A stretch of 64,000 nt of DNA, from the NCBI RefSeq assembly GCF_017309385.1, contig NZ_JAFJMJ010000003.1, forward strand, positions 310,001 through 374,000, written 5' to 3'. The position numbers and the translations under genes are program-made. The notes under the pieces are model-generated. The model was given only the letters and a program-made list of their open reading frames with translations, searched no databases and was not told the origin of the DNA. The stretch comes from Amycolatopsis sp. 195334CR. GTDB lineage: Bacteria; Actinomycetota; Actinomycetes; Mycobacteriales; Pseudonocardiaceae. Every line of letters starts with the position of its first letter. Position 1 is the first letter of the stretch. Positions 26,835-41,394 of this stretch are shown one piece after another.

Positions 26835-27101
26835 ATGCCGGAGCGACGTGTCAAGGTGGCGAGCAAGGTGGGCCTGCACGCCCGGCCGGCCGCGCTGGTC
26901 GCCAAGGCCGCGGCGGCCCAGCCGGTGGCGGTCAGCATCGCCAAGGACGGCGGCACGCCCGTCGCCGCGGGCAGCGTGCTCAGCCTCATGACGCTGGGCG
27001 CCGCCCATGGCGACGAAGTGATCATCACGGCCGAAGGAGACGGCGCGGAAGCCGCGATCGAAGCAGTGGCCGAGCTGATCGAGAGCGACCTGGACGCGTA
27101 G
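26835..27101 (+). CDS. ptsH: Phosphocarrier protein HPr
   Basis: Small general PTS phosphocarrier, 88 residues. The phosphorylated histidine is in KVGLHARPAALVA (His15), and the regulatory serine region VLSLMTLGA is also present. It lies 42 bases after the EIIC gene with AAGGA upstream of the ATG and ends at a strong terminator. No ptsI (enzyme I) gene lies in the window, so enzyme I must be encoded elsewhere. Confidence 0.94.
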   Translation: MPERRVKVASKVGLHARPAALVAKAAAAQPVAVSIAKDGGTPVAAGSVLSLMTLGAAHGDEVIITAEGDGAEAAIEAVAELIESDLDA

Positions 27102-27460: not shown

Positions 27461-28669
27461 ATGGAAACCACAACCACGAAGCCCACCGAGCTTCACCGCA
27501 TCGTCGTCGAACTGCAGCAGAACGAGAAGGAGGTAGCGCGGCTCCACGCACGGAGAATGAAGTTGGTCGCGGAGTTCTGCCGAAGATCCGAGGCGAGACG
27601 GGGCCTCCCCGAGCAGATCGCCATGGCCCTGTCGATGACCAAGCACCGGGCCGCCGCCACCATCACAGCTGCCGAAAAGCTGACCGCGCACATGCCCAAG
27701 ACCTTCGCGTTGCTGGAGAAGGGCAGCATCCCCTTGACCGTGGCCGAGCGCGTTCGGGACGCGACCTCCTGGCTCCCCGACAGCAAGTTGGCCGAAGTCG
27801 ACAGCCTGCTGGAGAACACCCTCGAGGGTCGCAACCCGACACAGGCCAGGAGGATCACGACCCGGACGGTCGCCAAAGTCGACCAGGAGGGCCATGCCGA
27901 TCGAGCCAAGGGCAGCCGCAGAGGCCGCCAAGTGCGCCTCCGTCACGGTGATGCGGGGACTGCTTCTCTTGCGGTGACGTCCGCCCCGATCGAGCACGCC
28001 CTCGCCGCGTACGCCAACGTCGACCAGCTCGCCCGGCGGCTGAAGACCGCCGACGAGACGCGCACGCTGGACCAGCTCCGCGCCGACACGATGCTGGACC
28101 TGCTGATGGGCAAGCAGTTCGGTGGCGAGGTCCGGACCCACTGCTATCTCTACCTGGACGCGACCACGTACGCCGGGCTGAACAACAGGCCCGCAGAGTT
28201 GGCCGGGCACGGCCTCATCCCCGCGTGGCTCGCTAAGGAAATGTGCAGCGGGCGGAACACCGTGTTTCAGCGGATCATCACCGAACCGCAGAGCGGGCAG
28301 GTCACCGAACTGGGCGAGGCCAAGCACAGCAGCACGGGCAACGTCACCGAACTCGTCCGGGTACGCGACCGGGAGTGCCGTCGGCCCGGGTGCACCAAGC
28401 CGGCCAAACTGACCGAACTCGAGCTGTGCGAGCACCACGACGGCCGGACCGAGAGCGCGCACATCGGCACCTGCGCGGCCGACCACAAGCTCCCAGCCAT
28501 TCGAGGCTGGCATCACACCCTCGAAGCGGACGGCTCGCTCACCGTCACCACGCCCAGCGGCGAGACTTACACCAGCAGGCCAGAGCCGCTGCACGAACCA
28601 CGCTCCATTCAGGACGACTCCTCAGCAGGCACGGACCATCAAGGCCACACCTACTGCCGCTGCGCGTGA
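27461..28669 (+). CDS. DUF222-type HNH endonuclease-like protein
   Basis: 402 residues of the DUF222/13E12-repeat family, many copies of which occur in actinobacterial genomes. The N-terminal half is helical (EQIAMALSMTKHRAAATITA then AEKLTAHMPKTFALLEKG). The C-terminal HNH zinc domain is visible from about residue 305: RDRECRRPGCTKPAKLTELE, then CEHHDGRT and ADHKLPAIRGWHH. The central H-x-x-P/H-x-x-x-W spacing of the family looks altered (CAADHKL in place of the more common DHxxPW), so nuclease activity is uncertain. The ATG at 27461 is preferred over an earlier start by family length. It marks the left flank of the NRPS-type cluster. Confidence 0.75.
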   Translation: METTTTKPTELHRIVVELQQNEKEVARLHARRMKLVAEFCRRSEARRGLPEQIAMALSMTKHRAAATITAAEKLTAHMPKTFALLEKGSIPLTVAERVRDATSWLPDSKLAEVDSLLENTLEGRNPTQARRITTRTVAKVDQEGHADRAKGSRRGRQVRLRHGDAGTASLAVTSAPIEHALAAYANVDQLARRLKTADETRTLDQLRADTMLDLLMGKQFGGEVRTHCYLYLDATTYAGLNNRPAELAGHGLIPAWLAKEMCSGRNTVFQRIITEPQSGQVTELGEAKHSSTGNVTELVRVRDRECRRPGCTKPAKLTELELCEHHDGRTESAHIGTCAADHKLPAIRGWHHTLEADGSLTVTTPSGETYTSRPEPLHEPRSIQDDSSAGTDHQGHTYCRCA

Positions 28670-29520: not shown

Positions 29521-30765
29521 GTGTCCTCGTGCAAAGTGGCCGACGGTCAGCCACATCTGCCTCCGGCCCGCGACCGAAGGCAAGCGGCCTGTCCGAAGGA
29601 ACTCAGTGTCTACAACCTCATCCTCCGCCCCACCGCGGCTCGGGAGCAATTGACCGCGCTGACCGAACGTGCAGCGGTGCACTGGGACCCCTACGTGTCC
29701 GCCTGGTTGATTTGCGGCACGGCCGAAGCTTCCTTGGTGCTTACGGATGAACGGTTCTCGTCAAAACGGCTCAACGTCAACGGTGACACAGTACCCTCGC
29801 CCGACACTACGGAATCCACTATGGACGCGATGGTGTCTCGGATGATGCTCCTGAAGGATGGGGCCGAACACCTGCGGTTGAAGAAGGTCGCCCGGGCCGT
29901 CCTCACTCCACAACGGATCCAGGCACTCGAACCATCGATGCGCGAACTCGCCGCCGAACTGCTGCCGCTCGACAAGCCGGGTGATCTCGACTTCGTGGAA
30001 CACGTAGCGAAGGAGTTTCCGTTGCGGGTGCTCGGCGAACTGCTCGGCATCGACGAGTCCGACCTGGACATGGTGCTCGCCGGGTCGGACGCGATCACGG
30101 CCATTGTCAGCGGACTGGACCACACGATCGATCCAGAGATCCACCGCAGAGCGCGCACCTTGTACGAATACGCCTTTCGACTCGTCCGCGAACGCCGGGA
30201 AAATCCTGGCGACGATGGCATCAGCGCGCTCGTGCGCGCCGCCGACGACGAAGGCCTCGCCGACGCGGATATCGCCGCCAATCTGGTCATGCTGATCGCG
30301 TCAGGCCATCAGACCATGCCCGGTTTCCTCTCGATCTCCCTGCACAGCGCCCTGACCTCCGACGCATCTGCGTTGGAACTACCCGGCGCGCTGGCCAACG
30401 TCACACCGTCTCGTTTCGTCGGCAGGGTTGCGACGGCAGACATCGACGTGGGCGGATGCCGGATTCGCGCTGGTGACAAGGTGCTCGTTCTCCTCGCCGC
30501 GGCGAACTGGCACAGGGGCTCGGCCGACCGAGGGCAACGCCACCTGGCGTTCGGCTACGGCCGGCATCGCTGTGCGGGCGCCGCGATGGCCGAACTCGAA
30601 GGGGCTGTGATGTTCGAGCGAATGACCGAAGCCATGCGGGCAGGTGTCCGACTGGCCGACGCCGGTGTCGAGTGGAATAACGACGCGAACTTGCCTTCTC
30701 TCACCAAGTTACCCATCCGGCTCGGCAAGACATCCAAGGCTTCGACACCGCTGTCCGATCGGTGA
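29521..30765 (+). CDS. Shortened cytochrome P450 lacking the ExxR motif
   Basis: 414 residues. The GTG at 29521 is chosen because AAGGAG lies 6 bases upstream. The P450 fold is clear: VHWDPYVSAWLICG near residue 53, ERFSSKR, C-helix EHLRLKK, and an intact haem-binding loop HLAFGYGRHRCAG with Cys351. Two features are abnormal. The I-helix reads ASGHQT (260-265), so the usual acid before Thr is Gln. Between it and the RVATADIDVGG strand (302-312) there are only 36 residues instead of about 55, and no ExxR is present; the meander before the haem loop is also about 15 residues short. It heads a coupled operon; its stop overlaps the next GTG by 4 bases. Activity on a carrier-bound or unusual substrate, or a non-canonical reaction, is possible. 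Confidence 0.85.
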   Translation: MSSCKVADGQPHLPPARDRRQAACPKELSVYNLILRPTAAREQLTALTERAAVHWDPYVSAWLICGTAEASLVLTDERFSSKRLNVNGDTVPSPDTTESTMDAMVSRMMLLKDGAEHLRLKKVARAVLTPQRIQALEPSMRELAAELLPLDKPGDLDFVEHVAKEFPLRVLGELLGIDESDLDMVLAGSDAITAIVSGLDHTIDPEIHRRARTLYEYAFRLVRERRENPGDDGISALVRAADDEGLADADIAANLVMLIASGHQTMPGFLSISLHSALTSDASALELPGALANVTPSRFVGRVATADIDVGGCRIRAGDKVLVLLAAANWHRGSADRGQRHLAFGYGRHRCAGAAMAELEGAVMFERMTEAMRAGVRLADAGVEWNNDANLPSLTKLPIRLGKTSKASTPLSDR

Positions 30766-32264
30766 GTGTTGTGCGCATTGGGATAGTGGGCGCTGGGGCC
30801 ACGGGAACAAGCGTGCTGGACATACTGGTACGAGATCTTGGCCAAGTCGCTCCCCGAGCACAGGAGCACGAAGTCACGGTCTTCGACCCGACCATGCGGT
30901 TCGGACCGGGCCGGGCTTATCTTCCGGGAAGCGAGAAGGCCCTGCTCAACCTGCCGGCCCGGATGATGTCCGTGCGCCCCGGCGATCCCGGGCATTTTGT
31001 TGACTGGCTGGCTGAACGTGGCCGCGGGCCCGTGACCGGCGGGGAGTTCTTGAGTCGGAGCATCTACGCGCGCTACTTGGAAGACGTCGTCGCTGCTGCG
31101 GTGTCGACGGGGCGCCACAGCAACGTTCGGGTCAGGTTGGTGGGCGACCGTGCCTCCGCGATCAGCCGTGCAACCGACGCGTTCGCCGTACACACCGCAG
31201 CTGACGAGCATCACTGTTTCGACGCCATCTTCTTGTGCCCGGGCACCACTGAACCGGTCGACACCTATGGTCTTACCGGTAGGCCTGGCTTTGTCGTCGA
31301 TCCATACCCGCTCCGCGAAACGGTGTCACGAATCGGAAGTGGACAGACGGTGGCCGTGCTGGGCACCGGCCTTACCGCCATCGATTTTGTCCTCGAACTG
31401 GCAGGTTCGGGCCATCAAGGACAGATACTGGCCGTCTCGCGCAGCGGATACCTGCCCAGTGTTCGTTACCCAGGGCCGGGGCCCAATCTGCTCGCGACGA
31501 GCGACGACACCGTCCTCACTCTCGCCAAGGAGCGCGGCTACCTGTCCTTACTGGACATCTACCGGGTGCTGCGAGCCGAGTTCCGCGAGCGCAACGTCCC
31601 GATGTCCGATCTGTGGCACGAACTGCGCAGCCACGAAGATCCAGCAGCCCGCTTTCTCCGCCATGTCGACGAGGCCCGCGGCGGCAGTCCATGGCACCTG
31701 GTGCTCATAGCCGTCGCGCGGTATCTCGTCGACAAGGCATGGCATCTCTTCGACGACGCCACCAAAGCAGCTCTCATCCACCAGTGGCACGGCGTCTGCG
31801 CTCGCTTGTGCGCCCCCATGCCTCAGGAGTCGGCTGTTGAACTGGCGAGACTGTTGCGCGCTGGTCAACTTCAGCTCGTCGGCGGGGTTGAAATGGTCAC
31901 CGCCAACGAGCACGGGTTTCTGATTGACACGACGTCGAGCTGGCATGTGGCTGACTGCGTCGTCAACTCGGTTCGACCGCGTGTGCCAGTAGTTCCGCGC
32001 CGGGCGCGGCAGTTGATCGGGTCGATGGTTCGCGACGGGTTGGCCGTGCCCCACCCGTTCGGCGGGATACGCATCGACACCGACACCGGCCTGGTGCAGG
32101 ACGCCACCGGATCCGCCGTCCCCGGTTTGTACGCCCTGGGCGAGCTGACGGTCGGCGAACGTTACGTGGAGACGACCATTCTCGGCGCCATCACCCGGCG
32201 CGCAGCACAAGCGGTGAAACACCTCATCGACCGTGATCCGGCCCTGAGACAGGAGCGACCATGA
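30762..32264 (+). CDS. FAD/NAD(P)-binding oxidoreductase (PF13454-like)
   Basis: 500 residues. Two dinucleotide-binding motifs are visible: RIGIVGAGATGTSVLDIL at the N-terminus (FAD) and VAVLGTGLTAIDFVLEL at about residues 196-212 (NAD(P)). The end PGLYALGELTVGERYVETTI is the FAD-closing segment of two-dinucleotide flavoproteins. The architecture resembles the HCR/SidA-distant flavoproteins grouped as NAD_binding_9; these are oxidoreductases or N-/C-monooxygenases of mostly unknown substrate. The GTG start overlaps the P450 stop (GTGA) and its own stop overlaps the A-T gene by 4 bases, so it belongs to the cluster. A redox role on the tethered amino acid, or as electron donor, is inference. 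Confidence 0.75.
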   Translation: MSVVRIGIVGAGATGTSVLDILVRDLGQVAPRAQEHEVTVFDPTMRFGPGRAYLPGSEKALLNLPARMMSVRPGDPGHFVDWLAERGRGPVTGGEFLSRSIYARYLEDVVAAAVSTGRHSNVRVRLVGDRASAISRATDAFAVHTAADEHHCFDAIFLCPGTTEPVDTYGLTGRPGFVVDPYPLRETVSRIGSGQTVAVLGTGLTAIDFVLELAGSGHQGQILAVSRSGYLPSVRYPGPGPNLLATSDDTVLTLAKERGYLSLLDIYRVLRAEFRERNVPMSDLWHELRSHEDPAARFLRHVDEARGGSPWHLVLIAVARYLVDKAWHLFDDATKAALIHQWHGVCARLCAPMPQESAVELARLLRAGQLQLVGGVEMVTANEHGFLIDTTSSWHVADCVVNSVRPRVPVVPRRARQLIGSMVRDGLAVPHPFGGIRIDTDTGLVQDATGSAVPGLYALGELTVGERYVETTILGAITRRAAQAVKHLIDRDPALRQERP

Positions 32265-33970
32265 ACTCGTGCGTCGGCGTAGCCGACCGGACCGTAGGCG
32301 ACCTCATCGAACGGCGGGCCCGCGCGCAGGGTGACCGTCCGTGCGTGTCCGCGGTGGACGGTGACCTCAGCTATGCCCAGTTCGGGGCGTTGGTCGAGAC
32401 GATCGCCGCTCAGTTGACCCGGCGGAACCTCGTTCGCGGAGAGCTTGTCGCGGTCGCGATACCGCGCTCGGCGCTGACCGTCGCGGCCGCACTCGCGGTG
32501 TGGCGTGCCGGCGGCGCGTTCCTGCTGATTGAACCGACGTTGCCGGAGTTGCGCCGCAGCGAACTGATTCGTGACGCGGGCGTTCGACTCGTGGTGTCTC
32601 CCCCAGAACGATCCGGGGTTCTCGGTGGCGCGGTGGAGATCACCGAGAACGGTGAATGGCGCTGCCCCGCCGAGGTCGTCGAGCCAGCGGAACTGGCCTA
32701 CGTCGTCTACACCTCCGGGTCCACCGGCAAGCCCAAGGGAGTCCTCGGCCGTCATTCTTCGTTGCTGTCGGTGGTTCGCACGGGCGAGCGGCATTTCAAG
32801 GTGCGCGCGTACGACCGGGTGGCCATGCTCGCGCCGCAACATGTCGAAGCGGCGTTCTTCGAGATGTTCGCGACGCTGGCGCTCGGTGCGCACCTCTGCA
32901 TTCCCACCGAACAGCAGCGAGTACCCGGTCCCGAGCTGGATCGATTCCTGCAGCAAGAGCGGGTGAGCGTGCTGGTCGCGACGCCGTCGCGGTTGCGCGA
33001 GATGAACCCCGACCTCTTCCCCGCGCTTCGGGTCGTGATCTGCGGGGGTGAGGACCTGCCCCCGGATGTCGCCCAGCGCTGGGCTTTCGGGCGCACGCTC
33101 GTCAACAGCTACGGCGTGTCGGAAGCGACGATCGCCAGCACCTACATCGAGATCGATCCGGATAAGGCCCGGCGGATCCCGATCGGCCGGACGTGCGACG
33201 GCAGTGAGATCGTCGTGCTGGACGACGAGTTGCGCCCGGTTCCCGACGGCACTCCCGGCGAACTGTTCATCGGCGGCGACGGCGTGGCGCTGGGCTACCT
33301 GGGACGACCGGAGCTGACCGCGGAGCGATTCGTCGACGTCGGTGGCCAGCGCATGTATCGCACCGGCGACCGTGGGGTGCGCGAGGCGGACGGCCTGCTC
33401 TACTTCCTCGGCCGCAACGACGACCAGGTGCAGATCGGTGGCTTCCGGGTTGAACTCGGCGAGGTCCGCGCCGTGCTGCGGGAGCACCCCGCGGTCCGCG
33501 ACTGCGCGGTGCGCGAGGACGCCGGGAGGCTGGTGGCCCACGTCGTGGGCGACGCGAATCTCGATGTCGCGCTCATTCGACGCTGGTTGGCCGAGCGGCT
33601 TCCTTCGTACATGGTTCCGGCCTTATTCATCCCGGTCGACGACCTGCCGTTGACTTCGTGGGGCAAAGTCGATCCCACCGCGCTGACCCTGCCCACCCAG
33701 TTCAACGAGCGAAACGGCGACGGTGAAAGCCTCAGCGAAACGCAGGCCGCGCTCGGTGAGATCGCTGCCGACCTGCTCGGCCTGGAACGGTTCGACTCGG
33801 CTGACCTGCGTGCGGACCTCTTCCTGCTGGGGATGACGTCGTCGCTGATCACCCGCTTCGTGCGCCGGGTCGCCGTCGATCTTGGTACCGAGTTGAGCCC
33901 GGTGGACGTGTTCGAGCGTCCGACGGTGGCCGAACTGGCCGGAGTCGTCGACGGGAACGAGGCGGGCTGA
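32261..33970 (+). CDS. Free-standing NRPS adenylation-thiolation (A-T) didomain
   Basis: 569 residues. Adenylation core motifs: A3 YVVYTSGSTGKPKG (148-160), A5 NSYGVSEATIAS, A7 MYRTGDRG, A8 LGRNDDQVQIGGFRVELGEV, and A10 Lys469 in SWGKVD. A carrier domain follows (about 490-565) with the pantetheine site LLGMTSSL, Ser527. At the position that is normally Asp235 (GrsA numbering), which binds the alpha-amino group, I read Glu196 (HVEAAFFEMF). My by-eye pocket reading is E-A-F-V-I-G-S-I-A-K, which I cannot assign. There is no condensation domain and no MbtH gene. It probably loads an amino or other acid for modification on the carrier. ATG overlaps the flavoprotein stop by 4 bases. Confidence 0.88.
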   Translation: MNSCVGVADRTVGDLIERRARAQGDRPCVSAVDGDLSYAQFGALVETIAAQLTRRNLVRGELVAVAIPRSALTVAAALAVWRAGGAFLLIEPTLPELRRSELIRDAGVRLVVSPPERSGVLGGAVEITENGEWRCPAEVVEPAELAYVVYTSGSTGKPKGVLGRHSSLLSVVRTGERHFKVRAYDRVAMLAPQHVEAAFFEMFATLALGAHLCIPTEQQRVPGPELDRFLQQERVSVLVATPSRLREMNPDLFPALRVVICGGEDLPPDVAQRWAFGRTLVNSYGVSEATIASTYIEIDPDKARRIPIGRTCDGSEIVVLDDELRPVPDGTPGELFIGGDGVALGYLGRPELTAERFVDVGGQRMYRTGDRGVREADGLLYFLGRNDDQVQIGGFRVELGEVRAVLREHPAVRDCAVREDAGRLVAHVVGDANLDVALIRRWLAERLPSYMVPALFIPVDDLPLTSWGKVDPTALTLPTQFNERNGDGESLSETQAALGEIAADLLGLERFDSADLRADLFLLGMTSSLITRFVRRVAVDLGTELSPVDVFERPTVAELAGVVDGNEAG

Positions 33971-34755
33971 TGGCACCCGGTGCGGAAGGGCCGTGGTTCC
34001 CCCAGGTCGACCGAAGGCAGCGGCCAGCGGTCCGGCTGGTCTGCCTCGGTGCCGCCGGCACGGGAGCCTCCCAGTTCGGTGCGTGGTCAGAAGCGCTGCC
34101 CGAGTCGATCGAGGTCTGGCCGGTGCTGCTGCCTGGACGCGAGCGCCGGATTCGGGAGGAACCGCTGCGGCGGATCGACCTGATCGCCGACGAACTGCTC
34201 GCGGAGCTGGTTCGGCTGGTTGAACCAGGTGGACCGCCATGGGCCTTCCTCGGGCACAGCTTCGGGGCGCTGGTCGCCTACGAAACGGCGCGGAGGCTAC
34301 TGGACTCCACGGACCTGGCCGTGGAGGGGCTTGTCGCGTGCTCGATGCCTGCGCCGCATGTGCAGGCCGATCGGCTGCCGGTAGCCACCGACGACGATGC
34401 CGCCCTGCTCGACTGGGTCAGGACGTCCGGTGGCGTGGACGACGTGCTGCTCGGCGACGCGCGCTTCGCCCGTTGGCTGGCCGCCGACCTGCGAGCGACA
34501 TTGGACTGCCGCCGGTCGTACCGGTTGGACCGGCCGGTGAAGCTCGACTGCCCGGTGCTGGTCGCCTCCGGTGCGGATGATCCGGAGGTCGTTCCGGACG
34601 ACCTCGACGAGTGGCGGTACTGCACAACGGCCACCTTCGAACGGATCACCGTCGGGCGGGGGCACTACTTCCTGCGAAGCCATCAGGACGCGCTGCTGGA
34701 GCTGGTCCACGACCGGCTCACGCGGTGGCGCTCCGCGCGATCCAGCAGTTCCTGA
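33970..34755 (+). CDS. Type II thioesterase (alpha/beta hydrolase)
   Basis: 261 residues of the GrsT/TesA family that hydrolyses acyl groups from carrier domains. Catalytic serine in WAFLGHSFGALVAYE (about residue 96), Asp in VASGADDPEV and His in VGRGHYFLRS. The start overlaps the A-T stop by one base (TGATG). In the NikP2-type arrangement the hydrolase releases a modified amino acid from an A-T didomain; here it could do that or remove misloaded groups. Confidence 0.88.
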   Translation: MAPGAEGPWFPQVDRRQRPAVRLVCLGAAGTGASQFGAWSEALPESIEVWPVLLPGRERRIREEPLRRIDLIADELLAELVRLVEPGGPPWAFLGHSFGALVAYETARRLLDSTDLAVEGLVACSMPAPHVQADRLPVATDDDAALLDWVRTSGGVDDVLLGDARFARWLAADLRATLDCRRSYRLDRPVKLDCPVLVASGADDPEVVPDDLDEWRYCTTATFERITVGRGHYFLRSHQDALLELVHDRLTRWRSARSSSS

Positions 34756-34768
34756 AGGGAGCCGTGCC

Positions 34769-36109
34769 ATGACGCGAGAAGGATCCCGTCCCCCGGTCGC
34801 ACCGGGTGGACGGCCTGTGGTCGGGCATGCGCTGCGGCTGTTCCGGCGGCCTCTCGAATTCGTCGATCGGCAGCGGGCCTGCGGCAACGTGGTGTCGTTC
34901 CGCCTCGGCCGCGAGCCCGCGTTCCTGGTGAACAGCCCCGCCACGGTGCGCGAACTGCTCGTCGAGCACAACCAGGTGACCAAGAACGGGGTGCTCTTCG
35001 AGAAGCTCAAAGTGCTCGGCGGGGACGGGATCGGCAGTTCCTGGGGCGAACCGCACCGGCAACGGCGTCGGATGCTCGCGCCGCTGTTCACCCAGGAGCG
35101 CGTCACGGGGTACGCGAGCACGATGCGCGCGGCGGCCGAGGAGCAGACGTCGAACTGGGTGGACGGCGCGCCGCTCGAACTGGGCCGCGAGTTGAACGAG
35201 ATCGCCGCCGCGATCCTGGTCCGGTGCATGTTCTCGTCCGACGCGGGCAGCGAGACCGCTCGGGAGGCCGCTCGCTGGTTGCCGGTCGTGTTCCGTGGCG
35301 TGGGCAAGCGGGCCTACGCGCCAACCGGCCTGTTGTACGCGCTGCCCACGCGGTCCAACCGGTTGTACACGGAGGCGGGCAAGCGCGTGCACGCGCTGAT
35401 CGACGAGGTCATCGCGGTCTACCGACGAGAGGGCACGGCAGGCCGGGACATGCTGTCGGCGCTGCTCAAGGCCCGCGACCCCGAGACCGGCGAGACGCTC
35501 ACCGACCAGCAGGTGCACGACGAGGTCATGACCATGTTCTTCGTCGGCACCGAGGTCTCGTCGGCGGCGCTGGGCTGGCTGTTCCTCCAGTTGGACCGGC
35601 ACCCGAACATCGCCGACCAGGTGTACCGCGAACTCGACGACGTGCTCGGCGACCGGCCCGTCGAGTTCGACGACCTGCCGAAACTCGAGTACGTCGCGCG
35701 GGTGGTCCACGAGACGCTGCGCCTGTACCCACCGGGCTGGTTGTTTCCGCGCATCCCGACGGTCGACATCGAGGTGGGCGGCTACGCGATCCCGGCCGGC
35801 GCGAACGTGTTCTACAGCCCGTACGTGCTGCATCGCGATCCCCGGCTGTTCCCCGACCCGGACCGCTTCGACCCCGACCGGTGGTTGCCCGAGCGGACCG
35901 GGCGCGTGCCGCGCGGGGCGTTCATCCCGTACGGCGAGGGCGTGCGGGTGTGCATGGGCGGCTCGTTCGCGGCGGCGGAGATGCTGATCGTGCTCGCGGT
36001 GGTCCTCCGGCACTGGCGGCTGCCGCTGCGGCCGGGCGCGCGCGTTCGACCCGTCGCGTCGACCACGCTGCACCCCGACCACTTGCCGGTGGTGGCGCGC
36101 CGGCGCTGA
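34769..36109 (+). CDS. Cytochrome P450 (full-length)
   Basis: 446 residues. Contains HRQRRRMLAPLFT (C-helix region), I-helix FFVGTEVSSAALGW (acid present, usual Thr replaced by Val), K-helix ETLRLYPP (intact ExxR), PERF-type FDPDRWLPER, and haem loop FIPYGEGVRVCMGG. It is thus a canonical P450 of the PYGxGxRxCxG class, in contrast to the shortened one at the other end of the cluster. The ATG at 34769 follows the thioesterase by 13 bases with GAAGGGA upstream. Substrate unknown. Its stop is one base away from the stop of the convergent methyltransferase. Confidence 0.92.
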   Translation: MTREGSRPPVAPGGRPVVGHALRLFRRPLEFVDRQRACGNVVSFRLGREPAFLVNSPATVRELLVEHNQVTKNGVLFEKLKVLGGDGIGSSWGEPHRQRRRMLAPLFTQERVTGYASTMRAAAEEQTSNWVDGAPLELGRELNEIAAAILVRCMFSSDAGSETAREAARWLPVVFRGVGKRAYAPTGLLYALPTRSNRLYTEAGKRVHALIDEVIAVYRREGTAGRDMLSALLKARDPETGETLTDQQVHDEVMTMFFVGTEVSSAALGWLFLQLDRHPNIADQVYRELDDVLGDRPVEFDDLPKLEYVARVVHETLRLYPPGWLFPRIPTVDIEVGGYAIPAGANVFYSPYVLHRDPRLFPDPDRFDPDRWLPERTGRVPRGAFIPYGEGVRVCMGGSFAAAEMLIVLAVVLRHWRLPLRPGARVRPVASTTLHPDHLPVVARRR

Positions 36110-40092: not shown

Positions 40093-41394
40093 CTACGCCT
40101 CCGGCGTGAACGCGCGGAAGTAGAGGAACCGCGGCGCGGTGGTCAGGGACACGAACGCGCGGGGCGACACCTCGCGGCACTCCGGCAGCGGCATCGGCTC
40201 GTCGATCACGTCCACGGTGAACCCGGCTTCGCGCAGCGCGCCGAACGTCTGGCTCAGCGGACGCCGGTAGAACCGCACGTCGACCTCGCGGTCGCCGAGT
40301 TCGAACTGGTCGGTCACCTGCTCGCGGCGGAAGTAGTCCGGCCGGTCGAACCAGTGCCAGTCCTCGGGGTGGTGCACCGACATGACCAGCGCGCCGCCCG
40401 GGCGCAGGACGCGCCGGAACTCGGCGAGCACCGGGCCCCAGTCCTCCAGGTAGTGCAGCACCAACGACGCGGTCACCAGGTCGAACGCGTCGTCCGCGAA
40501 GGCGAGCGGTTCAGCCAGGTCGCCCTGCTCGAACCGGGCGCGGTCGCCGTACTCGCGTTTCGCCACGTCGACCATCGCCGGGCTGCCGTCGAGGCCGACC
40601 ACGTCGGCACCTCGCTCGGCGAGTGCGGCGGTGAGGTGCCCGGCCGCGCAGCCGACGTCGAGCACGGTGCGCCCGGCGAGCTCACCGGCCAGGCGCAGGA
40701 TCGCGGGCCGGTCGTACAACTCCTGGTACGGGTTGTGCCGGGAGTGCTCGGCGTAGTCGGCGGCGAAGCCGTCGTACTGGTCGTGCTCGGTGGACGCGAC
40801 CGCGGCGCGGCGCGACACCGGCTCACCGAGCGCGCGGCCCATGATCTCGTCGACCACGTCGTTCTTGGCATCGGCGTAGTTCTGGATGTACTTCCACTTC
40901 CGCGCGGCGAGCTGGCGTTTTGTCGCGGCGTAGAGCTCGCGGTCGTCCTGGTTGGACCGCAGGCGGTCGCGGAAGGTCCGGTACCGCTCGATCTCCTTCG
41001 TGTCGGGTGAATAGACGTGCAGGTTGATGTTCGTGTCCGGTCCTTTGAACGCCCGGTGCCGCTCCCAGTCGGGTTCGCGGATCGTCAGCACGTAGCCGGC
41101 GGCTTCCAGCTGCGGCACGTAGGCGCCTTCGTCGTCGGAGTCAGGCACGATCAGCATGATGTCGATGATCGGCTTGGCGCACAGGCCGGGCACCGAGGTC
41201 GAGCCGACGTGTTCCATCAGCACGACCGTGTCCCCCAGGACCTGTCGGATGCGGGCGGCCTCGCGCTCGTACAACGCGGGCCACGCGGGGTCGTAGTCGA
41301 CGAGCGTGACGGTGGAGTTGAGCACCGGCGGCTTGTCGACCCAGGCGGTTTCCACGTCGGAATCGGAATACTTCTCGCGATCCGGTTTCGGCAT
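40093..41394 (-). CDS. GrpB/UPF0157 nucleotidyltransferase domain fused to a SAM-dependent methyltransferase
   Basis: 433 residues. Residues 1-185 are a GrpB domain (VTLVDYDPAWPALYEREAAR; MEHVGSTSVPGLCAKPIIDI with the G-S-T/S nucleotidyltransferase motif). Residues about 205-433 are a class I methyltransferase (TVLDVGCAAGHLTAALAERG; VVGLDGSPAMVDVAK; FDLVTASLVLHYLEDWG). Each family is common alone; the joined form is unusual. Substrates unknown. It is not coupled to aroE, from which it is separated by 41 bases on the same strand. Confidence 0.85.
   Translation of the reverse strand: MPKPDREKYSDSDVETAWVDKPPVLNSTVTLVDYDPAWPALYEREAARIRQVLGDTVVLMEHVGSTSVPGLCAKPIIDIMLIVPDSDDEGAYVPQLEAAGYVLTIREPDWERHRAFKGPDTNINLHVYSPDTKEIERYRTFRDRLRSNQDDRELYAATKRQLAARKWKYIQNYADAKNDVVDEIMGRALGEPVSRRAAVASTEHDQYDGFAADYAEHSRHNPYQELYDRPAILRLAGELAGRTVLDVGCAAGHLTAALAERGADVVGLDGSPAMVDVAKREYGDRARFEQGDLAEPLAFADDAFDLVTASLVLHYLEDWGPVLAEFRRVLRPGGALVMSVHHPEDWHWFDRPDYFRREQVTDQFELGDREVDVRFYRRPLSQTFGALREAGFTVDVIDEPMPLPECREVSPRAFVSLTTAPRFLYFRAFTPEA

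Follow-up and report, generated by a model that had tools for sequence, protein, structure and literature searches.

Gene set and chromosomal island

We analysed a 64,000-nucleotide stretch of the 9.9 Mb genome of Amycolatopsis sp. 195334CR (contig NZ_JAFJMJ010000003.1, positions 310,001 to 374,000; hereafter the window), which carries a compact nonribosomal peptide synthetase (NRPS)-type gene set with two cytochromes P450 (P450a and P450b), a flavoprotein (FLV), a free-standing adenylation-thiolation didomain protein (A-T) and a thioesterase (TE). The five open reading frames (ORFs) of an initial annotation, which overlap by 4, 4 and 1 bases and are then separated by a 13-base gap, were confirmed from the sequence, and its description of the flavoprotein as PF13454-like is borne out by Pfam, the source of all domain calls on the set. 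The features, in window coordinates, are as follows.

29521-30765, + strand: P450a; GTG start; PF00067, 30.9 bits (cut-off 22.8)
30762-32264, + strand: FLV, PF13454 flavoprotein; GTG start; PF13454, 114 bits
32261-33970, + strand: A-T, 569 amino acids; AMP-binding, AMP-binding_C and PP-binding
33970-34755, + strand: TE, discrete (type II-like) thioesterase; Thioesterase, 111 bits
34769-36109, + strand: P450b; PF00067, 260 bits
36114-36908, - strand: MT19, PF04672 S-adenosyl methyltransferase; convergent to the five genes
27461-28669, + strand: DUF222 gene in the island; not counted as part of the pathway

Comparison of the five genes with three relatives gave dN/dS values of 0.06-0.26 and revealed no internal stops, with FLV of one relative (L115) ending two codons earlier; the five genes are intact, coding and under purifying selection. 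The proposed five-gene extent had overlooked MT19, which moves with the set: it adjoins the set in both Kribbella-type loci described below, in convergent orientation and at about 58% identity, and we therefore count it as part of the set. As initially noted, no condensation domain, MbtH or transporter was found among the genes scanned from the phosphotransferase system (PTS) genes to the beta-lactamase-type gene on the other side. The reported absence of a regulator holds for this island but not for the family, since a LuxR-type gene lies directly upstream of the set in both Kribbella-type loci and in Actinokineospora.

The region from just past the PTS genes (about 27.1-36.95 kb), comprising the DUF222 gene, the five genes and the PF04672 methyltransferase gene, is an insertion. 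Among 17 same-genus relatives compared at this site, one alone (G245) has the set; of the remaining 16, 14 have the PTS IIC and beta-lactamase-type genes side by side, and P450b and MT19 are missing from this site in all 16. The DUF222 gene, which shares 73-88% identity with its counterparts in the three Amycolatopsis relatives having the set, is probably mobile-element cargo and may mark how the island moved.

Distribution of the set

Eight loci were read: four from Amycolatopsis (window included), two of Kribbella type, one from Actinokineospora and one from Micromonospora. The four Amycolatopsis loci share the order P450a-FLV-A-T-TE-P450b with MT19 opposed. The Kribbella-type loci, from SID13031 (filed as Streptomyces) and G669 (assigned to Kribbella antibiotica), read P450a-halogenase-FLV-A-T-TE-flavin reductase-P450b with MT19 opposed and the regulator upstream. 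In G167 (assigned to Actinokineospora inagensis) the regulator is followed by P450a-A-T-TE, with a subtilase gene and a one-module type I polyketide synthase (PKS) gene (KS, AT, partial KR, ACP) upstream. The more distant G821 (assigned to Micromonospora sp. WMMD1102) has P450a-A-T-TE followed by another TE gene and another A-T gene (L132, 14516-17174; pocket of this second A-T, DAFFLGCTF). FLV gave no match in the G821 genome at E 1e-5; in the G167 genome it gave a single partial match (29%), on a different contig.

P450a, A-T and TE are thus common to all eight loci across genera, with the P450 and the discrete TE in the same operon, and the initially noted likeness to cassettes such as NikP1/NikQ/NikP2 and NovH/NovI is retained. 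What did not hold is the view of the abnormal P450 as an addition to this cassette: the Actinokineospora and Micromonospora loci, without FLV and P450b, keep the abnormal P450a with A-T and TE, from which we conclude that P450a, not P450b, is the lasting partner of the A-T. The possibility had also been raised that large NRPS or PKS genes, or a known compound, would turn up beside related sets. The one-module PKS gene, ending about 5.5 kb upstream of the Actinokineospora trio, goes some way in that direction; among the paper titles listed by literature searches, none names such a gene set or ties it to a known compound.

A search with FLV at E 1e-20 gave matches in 13 of 80 genomes of the genus; the four, window included, that matched at 69% identity or more carry the whole set in the same place. 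At E 1e-30, 20 of 200 genomes of the family matched FLV. A P450a profile at E 1e-75 detected 5 of 390 genomes in the family to which the window belongs, counting the window, and 2 of 38 in that of SID13031, counting SID13031. It detected 1 of 350 genomes in the family containing an Asanoa genome, none of the other 393 in a set of 394 class genomes and none of 343 Streptomyces, the last run without a positive control. Since scoring was limited to the best 4-5 candidates of each genome for the class, the Asanoa family, Streptomyces and the window's family, and since named Streptomyces and Nocardia members of the clade exist, these counts are lower bounds. Plasmids yielded 118 records with P450a relatives, all below 60% identity, the eight listed being at 28-33%. 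Only some metagenome A-Ts could be tied to a P450a (for example P0265 with P0147).

P450a keeps the heme ligand but has lost the ExxR arginine

The P450a clade comprises 28 matches besides the window's copy (at least 34% identity, down to E 1e-53). Of these, 24 were aligned with the window protein and five outgroup P450s, giving 30 proteins; P0132, P0134, P0142 and P0145 were excluded. The heme Cys (C351 in the window copy) is kept in all 25 P450a proteins, while the ExxR arginine is replaced by Ala (22 proteins) or Thr (3 proteins), leaving no ExxR motif, and the I-helix acid is replaced by Gln (Gln264) in 25 of 25; each of the five outgroup P450s has the canonical residue at these three sites. 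In 24 of the 25, the segment leading up to the Cys loop is shorter than in the outgroup, and the meander of the window copy is short. H117, T265, R302, H349 and C351, which we take to be heme and oxygen contacts, are invariant in 30 of 30 proteins. P450b is a canonical P450 with ETLR and the Cys loop, its nearest solved relative being 3dbg. As a side observation, the Actinokineospora P450a (L170, 11624-13306) contains a long insertion rich in Thr, Ala, Pro and Glu within its N-terminal region.

The loss of both residues raises the question of whether P450a is a non-catalytic recruiting or stabilising helper, like the P450-derived glycosyltransferase activators, with P450b as the oxidising enzyme. 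The complete replacement of the ExxR arginine and the I-helix acid would fit such a role, as would a weak match to TIGR04515, the model for those activators (57.8 bits). The cut-off of that model is 343, however, the Cys ligand is kept throughout, P450a is under constraint (dN/dS 0.17-0.18), and in the Actinokineospora and Micromonospora loci it is P450b that is absent and P450a that is kept. We regard the helper role as very unlikely. Two other assignments were rejected: TxtE-type nitration (TIGR04458, 96.9 bits, far under the cut-off of 500) and CYP157, P450a having no E-x-x-W type motif. CYP157 enzymes are bacterial P450s without the ExxR arginine, but they keep Glu, have Trp for Arg (EVLW, EQSLW) and sit with conservons (PMC3599690); in P450a, Ala or Thr takes the place of Arg, and its gene lies beside those for A-T and TE.

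The A-T pocket carries Glu at position 235 and two related operons carry a halogenase

The A-T contains PF00501, PF13193 and PF00550 only, and alignment gives its pocket letters as EAFVIGSIA. Nearly all A domains have Asp235, which normally binds the alpha-amino group; here, alignment on the Asp of a linear gramicidin A domain places Glu196 at that position. Glu occupies it in 16 of 16 group-1 A-Ts and Asp in the six group-2 A-Ts, whose pocket is DAFVIAAI(W/C). In a 32-row A-T tree, groups 1 and 2 each form one fully supported branch side and together a supported group, with a single origin of Glu235 and the Actinokineospora protein nested inside. A gain of FLV on this same branch, followed by later loss, is therefore possible.

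In both Kribbella-type sets a halogenase (PF04820, 539 bits) lies inside the operon between P450a and FLV. Compared end to end with tryptophan 6-/7-halogenases, it scored 880.7 bits to 6ib5 and 824.7 bits to RebH, which by similarity assigns it to the free-tryptophan type. The halogenase is the strongest pointer to a tryptophan substrate. Alternatively, the A-T would use a non-tryptophan amino or aryl acid and the set would provide a synthase elsewhere with a building block; in Kribbella the halogenase would then act on another substrate or a later intermediate. Six of the eight loci are without a halogenase, the group-2 pocket mixes letters found in Phe and Val codes, and the PKS gene near the Actinokineospora trio and the second A-T beside the Micromonospora trio would suit such a supply. 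Against it stands the placing of a free-tryptophan type halogenase within the operon in both Kribbella-type sets, and we consider this alternative quite unlikely.

FLV is related to aspartate N-hydroxylases

FLV is a class B flavin monooxygenase whose closest solved relative is the aspartate N-hydroxylase FzmM. It belongs with FzmM/CreE (8cp2, 8cp5) to PF13454 and has their overall fold, helical substrate domain included, and the catalytic Asn62 is kept, aligning with N63 of FLV (17 of 17 proteins). FLV is about 100 residues shorter, though, and the Asp-binding Arg13 of the aspartate entry site is Thr14 in FLV; none of the 16 relatives with a letter at this position has Arg, and one has a gap. 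The substrate of FLV must differ from that of FzmM/CreE. Aspartate N-hydroxylation for nitrous acid supply was rejected for FLV, as Arg13 is missing and no lyase was found among the genes scanned in the island.

Distant FLV relatives in Longimycelium (L023, 9962-12886) and Streptosporangium (L024, 7053-10916) are each followed by a look-alike protein of 457-483 amino acids; in L024 the gene upstream resembles a phytanoyl-type dioxygenase by eye. A same-genus genome (G268; L117, 6852-11986) has another small set, in which an A-T (36%) and a PF13454 flavoprotein (30%) accompany a GNAT-like protein and a 418-amino-acid protein that has no Pfam match.

Neighbouring genes

At the left edge of the island, a short ORF after the PTS IIC gene (26836-27101, + strand) resembles HPr by eye and has a terminator-like inverted repeat at its 3' side. 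Beyond the right edge, a single ORF at 40093-41394 (- strand) has both GrpB and methyltransferase domain matches, as a fusion.

Proposed pathway

Oxidation of a carrier-bound amino acid has been shown for Qui18/Qui15, which with Qui14 provide the beta-hydroxylated tryptophan of the echinomycin pathway, and the conserved trio of P450a, A-T and TE fits such an oxidation. Both sets have a free-standing A-T, a discrete type II thioesterase and a single P450 that acts, or in the present set would act, on the carrier-bound amino acid, with tryptophan as the likely substrate here. The present set differs in its P450 without the ExxR arginine, the Glu at Asp235, the extra flavoprotein, second P450 and methyltransferase, and in having no MbtH beside it and no large NRPS in the island. 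For FAD-dependent N-oxygenation beside free-standing domains there is a proposed precedent in the polyoxypeptin cluster (PlyC/PlyD/PlyE/PlyR), where a FAD monooxygenase was proposed as an N-hydroxylase. The Ply set likewise includes free-standing A and carrier proteins, thioesterases, a FAD monooxygenase and a NikQ-like P450, but lies within a large NRPS/PKS cluster, handles aliphatic amino acids and has A and carrier as separate genes.

We tentatively read the island, with confidence a little short of even, as a small single-monomer pathway in which a cassette resembling Qui18/Qui15 oxidises a tryptophan-type acid on its carrier and N-oxygenation probably also takes place. The A-T would activate a single aromatic amino acid and hold it on its own carrier domain; the likeliest candidate is tryptophan, or chlorotryptophan in Kribbella, or an N-oxidised version of it. 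P450a would oxidise the bound acid and the thioesterase would release it. FLV would oxygenate the nitrogen as far as an N-hydroxy group or an oxime, either ahead of loading or while the acid is carrier-bound, and P450b and the methyltransferase would complete the molecule. The product is probably a new small molecule or building block.

An ordinary, echinomycin-like supply of a beta-hydroxy amino acid is an alternative: the A-T would load tryptophan, P450a would beta-hydroxylate it and TE would release it, FLV and P450b then oxidising the free product at carbon with no N-oxygenation. The content of the core trio equals Qui18/Qui15/Qui14, and two loci have the trio without the flavoprotein. A P450a without the ExxR arginine and I-helix acid would nevertheless be odd for a plain hydroxylase, and the nearest solved relatives of FLV are N-hydroxylases; we judge this supply route unlikely.

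Several points weigh against the tryptophan N-oxygenation pathway itself. The halogenase occurs in only 2 of 8 loci, so tryptophan is not established for the Amycolatopsis A-T, and the A-T pocket letters match no code known to us. The FzmM entry was the only clear PF13454 relative in a PDB search and the family also includes C-hydroxylases such as HpyO, so that the nearest structure leaves the reaction unfixed. MbtH is absent from the island by window and genome scans, its ten matches lying elsewhere in the genome and none within the window. The Actinokineospora A-T has Glu235 in a locus without FLV, hence Glu235 is not simply the mark of an N-oxidised substrate, and the tight FLV-Glu235 link that we had considered is weakened accordingly. 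In another Amycolatopsis, the neighbour of a 30% PF13454 relative is a distant A-T that has Asp235.

For the P450a lineage as a whole, we propose, as a doubtful but real possibility, active heme-thiolate enzymes without the K-helix arginine and I-helix acid that act on carrier-bound, perhaps N-oxidised, tryptophan from a Glu235 A domain, by a chemistry other than plain hydroxylation leading to N-O-bearing indole metabolites, chlorinated in Kribbella. To our knowledge, ExxR is regarded as almost absolute in P450s. P450a relatives from several actinomycete genera, beside A-T and TE genes in every locus read, keep the heme Cys and the other invariant residues and have lost the ExxR arginine in 25 of 25 proteins, and so offer a direct test of the role of this motif. 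The set is very small for an NRPS-type pathway and can be expressed whole, and it may yield indole N-O chemistry not yet tied to genes.
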